From assembly GCA_018897155.1 (NCBI GenBank), contig JAHILE010000018.1:1-7779 (forward strand): a stretch of DNA of 7,779 nucleotides, written 5' to 3'. Within the stretch, counting starts at the first letter, position 1. Each line of letters opens with the position of its first letter. The notes below the pieces were generated by a model. The model made no database searches and was not told where the DNA came from. It saw only the letters and a list, made by a program, of their open reading frames with translations. Below, one piece after another: positions 3,556-7,779 of this stretch. The position numbers were made by a program, and so were the translations under genes. Source of the DNA: Nanoarchaeota archaeon (GTDB taxonomy: Archaea > EX4484-52 > LFW-46).

Positions 3556-5256
3556 TTATAGAAATATTTCGTCAAACCCGCACCCTCCGCCGAACTTCCC
3601 GTCAACAGTGCAGTTCACGCCGCCATACTGGGTTCCGTCGTTTCCATATCCTGATGAATCCTGCGTACTGTTCGCGATGTTGTTTGAATTGCCGGACAAC
3701 TCGAGCCAGACGCCGTATCCGCTTGAGCCAAAGGTTGTGATGGTGTTGTTTGAGACGTTGTTTGAATTGCTGGACGATTGGAGCCGGACGCCGTATCCGA
3801 ATAAGCCCGATGTTATTATAGTATTATTTTGTATTGTTCCGTTTGAAGCGCCATAGAAATAAATCGCGTAAGAGCTTAAAGGCGTTGAATTCCCCTGCAA
3901 AATATTCGCATTCTTTATTGTTGTGAAGTTGTAGCCCAACTGGTTGTCTATTGCATACCCCGCCGCAGTCTTTGAATAATTGATTGTATAACCGGCGCCG
4001 TCAAGGGTGACGTTATTCTCCTTGATTGTGAAGCACGTCCCTGCGGATGAGACATTCTGCATTAATATGTAACTTCCTCCGGCACGTGTCAGGTTCTGAC
4101 AAGCATATATGCCATAAGGCGGATTAGCGTCAATTACAACCTGTTTTGTTGCGGTCTGATTCACATTTCCCGCCAAATCCTGTGCGTATGCTGTGTAGTT
4201 GTAGATGCCGTCCGGCGTGTTGGTAAAGTTGTGGTATAATCTGTAAACTCCGGCGTTGTAGGATGCGTTGATTTCTTCTGGCGACAAAGCGCGGTTCCAG
4301 ATTTTGACTTCATCAACATTGCCGCTGAAATTTCGCTTCAAATCAAATCGGTTTCCGATAAAAAGCGGATTGGAATCTTTTCTGAGGATGCCAGTCACGT
4401 TTTTAGTATCGCTTAAGTTGCCATCCAAATATAATTTAAAGTCAGTACCATTGTAAGTAATTGCAGTATGGTGCCAAGCATCTTTTGAAATGCTCATTTG
4501 ACTAGTTGCGATACCTTCGGTAGCGTTGGCAATATCTGCCTGCAAATTGCCAGTTAAGGTTATTTGAAATAAAAACGATCCATTGCTTGACGAATTCCAG
4601 TTCGAGACAAAGTATCCTTGTGGTATGCCGGTTGGCGGATAAATCCATGCCTCAACAGTAATATAATCCGGCTCAAGCGAAGCGCTATATGGAACCACAA
4701 CATAATCGTCCACACCGTCAAAATCAAGCGCATTGCCAAATTTTCCAGTTGTATTTGTTGGGCAGTTTGAGCCGACGCACGTCCCGTTGTTTCCGTATGC
4801 TGACCAGTCGCGGAACTTAGTTGAGTTTTCTCCGGATTCATTGTTGAATCTCCACCAGCCAACCAAACCCCTATCAAAATCAATAAATGCGGTCACATTA
4901 CCTGCATCGGATATTGAAGTATTCACATATGTCCAAGTTCTGCTGACGAAAGAATTATTTGCGTCTGTCGGGGAATAAAATGTTATGGCTGGGACTGCAA
5001 AAGCGAAATACGCAAAAAACACCAAGAACACTGCAGCAAAAAATAAAGATACATGGATTTGCGGCCTTGAATACGATTTTTTTATGCAATTTCTGAAATA
5101 TTTGTTGTATCCGCATGCTTTGCTAAAGATATTTATAATTTTGTGATTCCGAAGGGTGTTAGTTTTCAACGCAAAGCCTGCCTGAAATAAAAAAATGAGA
5201 GCGCTAAGAAATGACAAAACAAGAATAAGATTAGAGCAAATGCTAAAATCACGCAT
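3556..5256 (-). CDS. Secreted LamG + NosD-like beta-helix surface protein, C-terminally truncated
   Basis: A start at ATG 5256 (GTG 5265 is the alternative) gives 566 residues; positions here count from GTG 5265. There are two hydrophobic segments (12-32 and 72-90). The second ends FAYFAFA|VPAITFYSP, a good signal-peptide or anchor boundary, so the first 70 residues may be an unusual extension. Residues about 133-340 form a concanavalin-like LamG domain: GLVGWWRFNNESG, DFDGVDDYVVVP, AWIYP, AWHHTAITYNGT, LYLDGNL, FIGNR, VDEVKIWNRALSPEEI. A short Ig-like/linker stretch (YNYTAYAQDLAGN) follows, then NosD-like beta-helix turns from about 385 to 532 (NNVTLDGAGYTINYSKT, and repeats with SNSNNVSNNTI). 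From about 534 it resembles the start of a second LamG domain (DSSGYGNDGT..., GKFGGGCGFD) but ends EIFL-stop. Probably an N-glycosylated cell-surface adhesin; ligand unknown. Confidence 0.85.
   Translation of the reverse strand: MRDFSICSNLILVLSFLSALIFLFQAGFALKTNTLRNHKIINIFSKACGYNKYFRNCIKKSYSRPQIHVSLFFAAVFLVFFAYFAFAVPAITFYSPTDANNSFVSRTWTYVNTSISDAGNVTAFIDFDRGLVGWWRFNNESGENSTKFRDWSAYGNNGTCVGSNCPTNTTGKFGNALDFDGVDDYVVVPYSASLEPDYITVEAWIYPPTGIPQGYFVSNWNSSSNGSFLFQITLTGNLQADIANATEGIATSQMSISKDAWHHTAITYNGTDFKLYLDGNLSDTKNVTGILRKDSNPLFIGNRFDLKRNFSGNVDEVKIWNRALSPEEINASYNAGVYRLYHNFTNTPDGIYNYTAYAQDLAGNVNQTATKQVVIDANPPYGIYACQNLTRAGGSYILMQNVSSAGTCFTIKENNVTLDGAGYTINYSKTAAGYAIDNQLGYNFTTIKNANILQGNSTPLSSYAIYFYGASNGTIQNNTIITSGLFGYGVRLQSSSNSNNVSNNTITTFGSSGYGVWLELSGNSNNIANSTQDSSGYGNDGTQYGGVNCTVDGKFGGGCGFDEIFL
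3679..3799 (-). repeat. 78-bp-period beta-helix repeat within the LamG/NosD gene
   Basis: A 43-bp block at 3679-3721 recurs with a few substitutions at 3757-3799. The period of 78 bp (26 residues) matches successive beta-helix turns (GYGVRLQSSSNSNNVSNNT and GYGVWLELSGNSNNIANST). It is internal to the coding sequence. Confidence 0.8.
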
Positions 5257-5292
5257 CAACAGCACCAGATAACATATATTTTCTCACGATTC

Positions 5293-5300
5293 TATATATA
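5293..5300 (-). promoter_or_regulatory. TATA box of the LamG gene
   Basis: Minus-strand TATATATA (context AAGTATATATAGAA) would place transcription start near 5271, 15 bp before ATG 5256. This gives a very short leader, common in archaea. It probably also drives the AlbA_2 gene downstream. Confidence 0.5.
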
Positions 5301-5370
5301 CTTGTAGCGATTTTTTATTGCATTGCAGTAAAAAAGCTTGAAAATAATTCAGATTTTCATGATTTTTTGT

Positions 5371-5383
5371 GTTTACCGTAAAC
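5371..5383. promoter_or_regulatory. Palindromic operator-like site 1 (GTTTAC-C-GTAAAC)
   Basis: A perfect 6+1+6 palindrome, the most upstream of three related sites. It lies about 45 bp before the plus-strand TATA box and about 75 bp from the minus-strand TATA box, so it could serve either divergent promoter. Confidence 0.6.
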
Positions 5384-5398
5384 GACGGAGAAATTTTT

Positions 5399-5411
5399 GT
5401 TTACTGTCAAC
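5399..5411. promoter_or_regulatory. Palindromic operator-like site 2 (GTTTAC-T-GTCAAC)
   Basis: Same pattern with one mismatch; outer bases T and A extend it to 15 bp (5398-5412). It ends 5 bp before the plus-strand TATA box, where TFB contacts DNA. A bound protein there could block or aid initiation. Confidence 0.55.
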
Positions 5412-5416
5412 ACACA

Positions 5417-5425
5417 CATATAAAG
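5417..5425 (+). promoter_or_regulatory. TATA box of the plus-strand gene
   Basis: CATATAAAG is an archaeal TATA-type element. Expected transcription start is near 5446, just after palindrome 3. It sits between palindromes 2 and 3. Confidence 0.5.
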
Positions 5426-5431
5426 ATGTTT

Positions 5432-5444
5432 GTTTATCATAAAC
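5432..5444. promoter_or_regulatory. Palindromic operator-like site 3 (GTTTAT-C-ATAAAC)
   Basis: A perfect palindrome, extended to 15 bp (TGTTTATCATAAACA, 5431-5445). It lies between the plus-strand TATA box and the predicted transcription start, a classic repressor position in archaea. Centre spacings within the cluster are 28 and 33 bp. Confidence 0.62.
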
Positions 5445-5517
5445 AAGGGAGATAACTTCAAAGAATTTTAGTGCGAAGTCATGAAACATTTATGTGTTTC
5501 AAGCCTTCGAAATTTTC

Positions 5518-5539
5518 GCTCTGCGATTCAATGCAGGGC
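5518..5539 (+). other. Stem-loop in the leader of the plus-strand gene
   Basis: GCTCTGC and GCAGGGC form a 7-bp stem (one G-U pair) around the 8-base loop GATTCAAT. It ends 5 bases before ATG 5545, in a leader of about 100 nt, so it could affect which start is used or how well it is translated. No known riboswitch class is recognised. Confidence 0.35.
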
Positions 5540-5544
5540 TTCAA

Positions 5545-5955
5545 ATGTTCAAAGTGAAAAAAATGGACAGCCAAAAAACATCCATTTCCCTTGAATTGGA
5601 AGCGCTGAAAAAAGAGATAACGAAAGTAACTGAAAATCGCGGCGGTTTAGACATCGACTGTGATTTAACAAATGAGTCAGAAGACAAAAGAGAAATCAAA
5701 GACACTTCAAATAATAATGTGAGCATTCTTATAACGTATTCCCTCTTAAAGAAAAACAGATCAAAGAAAATGCTTTTCAACTACGAGCTAATAGGCAGAA
5801 ACGGAAAGGATGGATTGCTTCAGACACTCAATGGAGAAAAGGTCACTTCAGGTTGTTTTATAGCACCTAAAGATAAAGAGAACTCGATTGATGAATTTCT
5901 CAAAAAACACGATATTGAATTCTCAAAGAGAAATATAACGCTCATCAATAATTGA
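5545..5955 (+). CDS. Unrecognised small protein (hypothetical)
   Basis: The only plus-strand gene; 136 residues from ATG 5545. ATG 5563 is preceded by GTGA at 5554-5557 and is an equally good start; a GTG at 5494 would add 17 residues. Residues about 10-30 look like a charged helix (LELEALKKEITKVTE), 33-55 an acidic polar linker, and 57-134 a compact alpha/beta domain. The latter has a beta-strand SILITYSLL, the motif YELIGRNGKDGLLQTLNGEK, and a C-terminal EFLKKHDIEFSKRNITLI. There is no signal peptide or membrane segment, so it is probably cytoplasmic. I recognise no family and no catalytic signature. Its promoter carries three related palindromes, so it is probably under tight control. It could be a small DNA-binding or regulatory protein acting on those sites, but nothing in the protein proves that. 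Confidence 0.7.
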   Translation: MFKVKKMDSQKTSISLELEALKKEITKVTENRGGLDIDCDLTNESEDKREIKDTSNNNVSILITYSLLKKNRSKKMLFNYELIGRNGKDGLLQTLNGEKVTSGCFIAPKDKENSIDEFLKKHDIEFSKRNITLINN

Positions 5956-6110: not shown

Positions 6111-7779
6111 TTATCCCGCCCTTGCAACCAGCACCCAATTGTAGCCGCTGGTGGAGTTTCTCATGCATGCATACATGTAATCATCCACTCCACTCCCTGA
6201 TTGCTCAAGCCAGAAAGTGCCTCTTTGTGCGGCATCACATGTTGATTTTGAATCTGTTGTATTAAGCCGCATTCCGCCGTTTATTTCTAATTTGGCGGAT
6301 GGCGAAGCCGTCCCGATGCCGACATTAGTCCCGTTATCGTATATTGAAGATATTCCAACAGTATTCGTTCCGGTGAACTTTGCGACGTAATTCGGAGTTC
6401 CAGCTCCGGACATATTCCCGCTTGTCGAATTAAGGGCAACACATGTAAATGAACCATCGCCAAGGCTCTGTATTGCCTCTCCTGCAACACAATTATTTGG
6501 ATATCCTGTGAGATTGGCCCAGCCAAGACCAAGATCGGCAACAAGCTTTGTCGAATTTATTGAGCCGTCAATTATCTGGACGGTTCCGACAGAGCCCGAT
6601 GCAAGCTGTAGGTTATTGTATGCTCCTGTAACGTTTCCATCAAATGATGTTGTGTTTTTCAGGATGGAACTCCCTCCGACAATGACATCAGTTCCAAAAT
6701 ATCCATAACGCCATGTATTAGTTAAAGAGCCTATGTCAAATGTATCTGTAAAGAAAGGTATTGCCGAACCGTTTACATTTATTGTTGTGACTCCGACATT
6801 TGTGATGTTTCCTATTATGTAAAGATTTTTATTGACTCTAAGGTCGTTTGTGACTGTTATCATCCCTGTTGCCGCAGTTATCTCTCCTGCTGAAACTTTG
6901 TTTAAAGAAGCCAAATCAGAAGCAAGATCTCCTGCTGCAATTGAGCTGTCAATGATTTTTGCAGAATTCACTGAATTATCTTCAAGCTGAAGGTTATCCC
7001 ATGATCCTGTGATATTTCCGCCAGTAAATATTGTGGTTGTATAGAGGCCGTTAGTTACAGTTGCTGCATTTCCAAGTATGTTAATGGCTGTACCATTGAC
7101 TGCATTAACCATTTCCGTTGTTGTGTTATATGTATCGATATCAGAACCACAAACAGGCACGCCATCAGTTCCTATTGATATAATCTTATCATTTCCCGTG
7201 CAAACTAATGAAACAACGCCACCCTTGGTTGTTGCTGAAGGATTTGGAAGGGTTATTGTGTATGCACCGCCGTTATTTGAAACAGTTATGTTGTCTCCGG
7301 CAAGGCTGTAACCGCTTATGTTTTCCCATCCCAAAGAGCCGGTCCAGGCAACTCCAAGATTCCAGCTTGTGAGGTTACCCCAATTCAAACCTTGCGTATT
7401 TATTACAGTAGGCGCAGTCACAGTTCCGCTTAAATCCCCGCCTATTTGAACATAAGAAGCATTATAAGTGCTTAAAAATAATGCTCTTTCGGTTGCGTTA
7501 TTTACATAATCTGTTTTTGCAGAGTAATTCGCAATCATGAATGCATCATAACTTGAATTATACGTACTTATTGCACTAGTATTGTCCAAAACTGCATTTC
7601 CATTCTGATATATGTTGACGCCGTAAATTCCGGCAGTTGCATTGATATCGCCTACGACATCAAATGTTTTAACCGGAGATGATGTGCCTATTCCGATTTT
7701 TGAGCCATCATCAAATATCAGGGAATCTCCCAACGTGCCTGCAGTTATGAACTTAGCAACACGATTCTGAGTTCCTGCA
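6111..7779 (-). CDS. Tail-fibre/adhesin-like repetitive surface protein (5' end outside window)
   Basis: The frame is open from 7779 to TAA 6111-6113 (555 codons) with no stop upstream, so the TTG at 7733 is internal and the protein begins outside the window. It has a 45-residue module at both ends of the visible part: AGTQNRVAKF...GIGTSSP near 7644-7778, and AGTPNYVAKF...GIGTASPSAKLEING near 6270-6404. This 'VAKF...vGIGT.sP...l.v.G' module is typical of phage-tail-fibre-like proteins (those that can end in an S74 chaperone domain) found in many uncultivated prokaryotes. A second internal repeat, GN[IV]TG..NLQL...II[DG].SI, occurs at 6912-7019 and 6531-6638. The C-terminus (CDAAQRGTFWLEQSGSGVDD, then YMYACMRNSTSGYNWV) is a small Cys-containing cap; no S74 protease domain is visible. 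Many N-x-S/T sequons suggest an extracellular glycosylated fibre. No membrane segment is seen at the C-terminus. Confidence 0.8.
   Translation of the reverse strand, partial: AGTQNRVAKFITAGTLGDSLIFDDGSKIGIGTSSPVKTFDVVGDINATAGIYGVNIYQNGNAVLDNTSAISTYNSSYDAFMIANYSAKTDYVNNATERALFLSTYNASYVQIGGDLSGTVTAPTVINTQGLNWGNLTSWNLGVAWTGSLGWENISGYSLAGDNITVSNNGGAYTITLPNPSATTKGGVVSLVCTGNDKIISIGTDGVPVCGSDIDTYNTTTEMVNAVNGTAINILGNAATVTNGLYTTTIFTGGNITGSWDNLQLEDNSVNSAKIIDSSIAAGDLASDLASLNKVSAGEITAATGMITVTNDLRVNKNLYIIGNITNVGVTTINVNGSAIPFFTDTFDIGSLTNTWRYGYFGTDVIVGGSSILKNTTSFDGNVTGAYNNLQLASGSVGTVQIIDGSINSTKLVADLGLGWANLTGYPNNCVAGEAIQSLGDGSFTCVALNSTSGNMSGAGTPNYVAKFTGTNTVGISSIYDNGTNVGIGTASPSAKLEINGGMRLNTTDSKSTCDAAQRGTFWLEQSGSGVDDYMYACMRNSTSGYNWVLVARAG
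6270..6404 (-). repeat. VAKF...GIGT-P module, downstream copy
   Basis: Protein-level repeat of 45 residues matching 7644-7778 (AGT-N-VAKF, I-D-G--GIGT-SP). It precedes the C-terminal cap of the fibre-like protein. Confidence 0.65.
7644..7778 (-). repeat. VAKF...GIGT-P module, upstream copy
   Basis: Protein-level repeat of 45 residues matching 6270-6404. It crosses the internal TTG at 7733, which shows that the coding region continues beyond the right edge. Confidence 0.65.

Follow-up and report, generated by a model that had tools for sequence, protein, structure and literature searches.

The locus studied here raises the question of what three related 13-bp palindromes do between a small uncharacterised gene and a divergently transcribed gene for a LamG surface protein. 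The window, the whole stretch of 7,779 bp that was analysed, is contig C18 of an archaeal genome of 1.43 Mb (G000). Its host is a DPANN archaeon of the same genus as the MAG LFW-46, which has been placed in the DPANN phylum EX4484-52 (PMC8561730). LFW-46 (G001) was the single genome of the genus with which G000 was compared, and its copy of the locus is on G001:C54 (15,829 bp). Two further genomes, G007 and G032, belong to f7, another family of the same order. To our knowledge, the regulation of transcription in DPANN archaea is poorly understood. Our analysis supports the view that the palindromes are putative sites at which a single regulator binds the small-gene promoter.

All three palindromes were found where the preliminary description had placed them, at centre-to-centre distances of 28 and 33 bp. 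Its observation that two of them flank the plus-strand TATA box also held: these are sites 2 and 3, with a gap of 6 bp on each side. The features of the region are the following.

3556 to 5265, minus strand: divergent LamG surface-protein gene (PF13385, E=7e-32), probably outside the conserved regulatory unit
5293 to 5300, minus strand: putative TATA box of the LamG gene, read in the sequence, 70 bp from site 1
5330 to 5368, no strand: dispersed CATGAAAATC...GATTTTCAAGC hairpin in a short form, to the left of site 1 (copies on G000 C46, C55, C28 and C4)
5371 to 5383, no strand: palindromic site 1, GTTTACCGTAAAC (GTTTAC-C-GTAAAC), read in the sequence, 12/13 identical to LFW-46 G001:C54 5175-5187
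5399 to 5411, no strand: palindromic site 2, GTTTACTGTCAAC (GTTTAC-T-GTCAAC), 11/13 identical to G001:C54 5203-5215, with equal 28-bp spacing
5412 to 5417, plus strand: ACACAC linker at the BRE position, read in the sequence, with ATAAAC/ATAAGC at the equivalent place in G007/G032
5418 to 5425, plus strand: putative TATA box ATATAAAG of the small gene, read in the sequence, at the same position relative to a site as in G007/G032
5432 to 5444, no strand: palindromic site 3, GTTTATCATAAAC (GTTTAT-C-ATAAAC), between the TATA box and the predicted transcription start
5474 to 5545, plus strand: dispersed two-hairpin element in the predicted 5' leader of the small gene (copies on G000 C26, C50 and C48, and at G001:C54 5010-5105)
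5545 to 5955, plus strand: small Cas2/PaaX_M-like protein gene, starting at ATG 5545 or ATG 5563; 7 other genomes of the order have an orthologue

Site 2 deviates from the consensus GTTTAYNRTAAAC at one position, and site 3 differs from site 1 by C:G to T:A on both arms. Symmetry is kept by such paired changes, C6:G8 to T6:A8 in site 3 and T4:A10 to A4:T10 in GTTAAGAATTAAC, a palindrome of G007 and G032. Sites 1 and 3 carry a common purine tail (GACGGAGA/AAGGGAGA). Transcription of the small gene would start near 5445-5446, so that the dispersed two-hairpin element (folding z-score of -4.2 for 5474-5560) would fall in a leader of about 100-117 nt.

Palindromes and neighbouring genes in related genomes

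The palindromes are conserved upstream of the orthologue of the 5545-5955 gene in the congener LFW-46, and G007 and G032, from the other family, have less strict versions of them there. In LFW-46, GTTTACAGTAAAC and GTTTACTATAAAC lie 28 bp apart, like sites 1 and 2, upstream of an orthologue that is 67% identical over the matched C-terminal part. The two sites agree with those of the window at 12 and 11 of their 13 positions, against 9 of 31 in the left flank, 6 of 15 in the spacer and 10 of 30 in the right flank (29-40% for flanks and spacer). The LFW-46 sites precede the apparent TATA box of the gene by about 150 bp and are nearer a possible promoter on the opposite strand, so the geometry of the sites is not constant. 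G007/G032 possess GTTAAGTGTAAAC/GTTAAGCATAAAC together with GTTAAGAATTAAC, 57 bp apart, upstream of their small-gene orthologue. There the nearer site ends 6 bp before a ATATATAC box, the same distance as for site 2 in the window, and the ATG comes about 28 bp after the box begins, as in a leaderless promoter. The looser consensus GTTWANNNTWAAC was set after these sites had been seen, and no further matches to it were found on the two contigs (8.8 kb and 4.9 kb).

A scan of 34 genomes from the order detected pairs of sites with 10-60 bp between them at seven places, four of them at the small gene, and the reversed control gave none. The other pairs lie before a uvrC-like gene (G033) and before a surface-protein gene (G007, G032). 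Four small-gene orthologues in genus g9 had no such palindromes. Since genomes of the same genus are not independent, the footprint amounts to about two independent observations.

Several further occurrences were recorded. In G033 (C44, 3491-6018), four GTTWANNNTWAAC sites fall within 2.5 kb, the pair before the uvrC-like gene and two within a large ORF. A GTTAANNNTTAAC pair, 56 bp apart, precedes a gene for an exported surface protein at G007:C84 8685-8753 and at G032:C143 1105-1173 and is conserved in both. With this similar pair in the two g7 genomes, dedication of the sites to one gene may fail there. In three genomes of genus g9, GTTAATTATTAAC precedes an aconitase/isopropylmalate-dehydratase-like gene by about 25 bp (G012:C148 6159, G027:C83 4773, G017:C41 6952).

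The palindromes might instead mainly control the divergent transcript, which is that of LamG in the window, or both directions together. In the window, in LFW-46 and in G007, divergent genes do lie on either side of them. The LFW-46 sites are closer to the minus-strand TATA box, with a LamG gene further along the same strand, and the divergent gene of G007 resembles one for an exported-type protein. However, the neighbour is not constant: it is LamG in the window, an HTH-MNT/HEPN pair and then the LamG gene in LFW-46, and in G007 a gene that we call pilin-like from reading its sequence, with no Pfam match. The LamG protein of the LFW-46 locus is also the least similar of eight to that of the window (35 bits, against 140 for G001:C40). 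The latter gene, whose product is the LFW-46 protein nearest to the LamG of the window, contains one near-match, and about 0.9 kb read upstream of it held no consensus site; 70 bp separate site 1 from the minus-strand TATA box of the window. We therefore regard control of the divergent transcript as unlikely. The suggestion in the preliminary description that the same regulator could switch the LamG gene was not borne out, given the varying neighbour and the lack of an upstream consensus site at G001:C40 in the stretch read, and LamG co-regulation was rejected. As far as the compared sequences go, the palindromes accompany the small gene and not LamG, because the divergent neighbour varies between genera and the closest LFW-46 LamG relative is without a consensus site in the upstream stretch read.

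The small protein and its possible role

The product of the small gene has 136 residues. AlphaFold2 models a helix at its N-terminus, joined by a low-confidence linker to a C-terminal beta-alpha-beta-beta-alpha-beta domain (domain pLDDT about 90). The top Foldseek matches of the protein include Cas2 (E about 0.03), and Cas2 reached a VIA Z of 7.2-7.5, level with other folds of the ferredoxin-like type. No family in Pfam or NCBIfam matched it above threshold, and its match to PaaX_M was below the cut-off (best E 0.01). In other archaea (L021, L022, L023, L025 and L026), from our reading of the sequences, the same domain lies C-terminal to an MNT-like nucleotidyltransferase, and a HEPN-like ORF adjoins one such fusion. 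These fusions suggest that the domain may have an accessory role in HEPN/MNT systems. Repetitive surface proteins are encoded near the small gene both in the window (6111-7778) and in G007 (C7, 4740-7367), with DVVGDINAT-type repeats common to the two (at most 63% identity).

It is very unlikely that the small protein, alone or with an MNT/HEPN partner, reads the palindromes and regulates its own gene, since neither sequence nor model searches found a recognisable HTH in it. If it did so, it would be a type of DNA-binding regulator without a helix-turn-helix in DPANN archaea. HTH-MNT was rejected as a shared regulator: the HTH-MNT proteins of the window and LFW-46 share only distant similarity, and proteins of this type occur in several copies. 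The gene for the candidate regulator probably lies elsewhere in the genome.

Rarity of the cluster, repeats and replication origins

The preliminary description had judged three such sites in 75 bp to be unlikely by chance, and simulation agreed. When 20,000 sequences of 280 bp were simulated with the AT-rich composition of the region, just 3 had three mutually similar near-palindromes inside about 80 bp, and no consensus triple (at most one mismatch) in 75 bp was found in 1.4 Mb of simulated sequence of that composition. The window holds six matches to GTTTAYNRTAAAC with at most two mismatches, against 1.44 expected, and one of 200 shuffles reached six. A scan of the 1.43-Mb genome, which had been put forward as a check, showed that the motif is not scattered: the perfect matches to GTTTAYNRTAAAC are two only, sites 1 and 3, both in this promoter region. 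Permitting one mismatch gave 26 matches genome-wide, fewer than the 43 found with the pattern reversed as a control, which shows no enrichment of the motif in the rest of the genome. The unusual feature is thus the clustering at this place and not a genome-wide signal. A regulon was ruled out by the lack of genome-wide enrichment and by the position of the stray sites, seven of the eight inspected falling within ORFs.

Chance resemblance in AT-rich DNA is a highly improbable explanation of the cluster. The lack of enrichment over the reversed control does mean that single sites elsewhere in the genome are due to chance. However, the probability that a region of this kind holds three related palindromes of any sort is about 1.5e-4, and the palindromes were kept in the congener despite its diverged flanks. 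A literature search for the exact palindrome motif gave nothing related. In IMG/VR, two paired matches only were found, both in ORFs of contigs without visible relation, and a viral link was rejected.

We give equally little weight to the possibility that the palindromes belong to a dispersed repeat or mobile element and are not an operator. Two dispersed hairpin elements do flank the region (5330-5368 and 5474-5545). The short CATGAAAATC...GATTTTCAAGC hairpin has a further match at G000 C35, and the dispersed element, which also has a longer form in which CATGAAAATC...GATTTTCAAGC is followed by CTTCGAAATTTTCGCTCYGCG..., is present in both congeners. The stretch that bears the palindromes, however, has no other copy in the genome, and on this ground the reading was dropped; the hairpins also differ in position relative to the palindromes between the window and LFW-46, whereas the palindrome spacing is constant.

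An archaeal replication origin with ORB-like repeats is scarcely credible, as several palindromes in intergenic AT-rich DNA and the purine tail of sites 1 and 3, which resembles the G-string of ORB elements, are set against two Orc1/Cdc6 genes that are both on other contigs (C40 and C54), none adjacent, with no such intergenic palindromes there and with an inverted G-string pair of its own before orc1 on C40. This pair of inverted repeats, CACCCCATCATTTC / GAAATGATGGGGTG, at about 67780-67940 of G000:C40, marks a likely replication origin before orc1/cdc6.

A proposed operator and known systems

The palindromes are real and conserved, and they probably have a function. We consider it likely that the three form an operator cluster for one dimeric regulator that serves only, or almost only, the small-gene promoter. 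The observed basis consists of the sites themselves, how rare they are, the way they are kept alongside the gene in two genera and the common 6-bp distance from site to TATA box. Similar palindromes are repeated beside core promoter elements, with three around the TATA box at 5418-5425, and sites were kept with the gene while their flanks diverged in LFW-46, with looser sites in G007/G032 and none in g9; both are features of an operator cluster.

From this arrangement we infer a promoter, a dimeric protein and repression as the default. One dimer would bind each 13-bp palindrome, in which the arms GTTWA/TWAAC enclose a centre of 3 bp. Site 2 would adjoin the BRE and TATA box, and site 3 would occupy the gap between the TATA box and the start. 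With site 2 and site 3 so placed, full occupancy should repress, by blocking TFB/TBP or RNA polymerase. Occupancy of the upstream sites alone might permit recruitment of TBP/TFB, as with Lrp-type activators. A rare, conserved operator at the promoter of an uncharacterised small protein would be a handle for finding a regulator in a DPANN lineage, and a route to the role of the MNT-linked Cas2-like domain. General understanding is unchanged, as palindromic operator clusters at archaeal promoters are already well known.

Three known systems invite comparison. The locus is like HEPN/MNT toxin-antitoxin loci in that MNT-like nucleotidyltransferases of other archaea carry the domain of the small protein as a C-terminal fusion, and in that the small gene of LFW-46 has a HEPN/HTH-MNT pair divergently adjacent. 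Unlike such loci, the gene in the window has no nucleotidyltransferase domain and no adjoining HEPN partner. MDR1 of A. fulgidus occupies several operators at its own promoter and autoregulates its own operon. It is a repressor at an archaeal promoter, where it blocks the recruitment of RNA polymerase (PMC2995911, PMC5569661). MDR1 is metal-dependent and autoregulating, whereas the regulated gene of the window encodes no recognisable DNA-binding domain.

Targets of the Lrp/AsnC (feast/famine) regulators, for instance Ss-LrpB, Ptr2 and FL11, are clustered imperfect inverted repeats of 13-17 bp, and the FL11 co-crystal contains a 13-bp palindrome (PMC2995911). Their site centres are two or three helical turns apart, and in Lrp-type activation a dimer site lies a few bp upstream of the BRE (PMC2995911). 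Lrp sites are AT-rich at the centre and quite degenerate, unlike those described here, whose centres are CCG, CTG and TCA in the window and CAG and CTA in LFW-46. Because these centres are not AT-rich, the cluster was not filed as an Lrp operator. Compared with the Lrp spacing, 28 bp corresponds to 2.7 turns, 33 bp to 3.1 and the 57 bp of G007/G032 to 5.4. The likeness to Lrp/AsnC clusters lies in the three 13-bp sites of the window, one of them directly upstream of the BRE.
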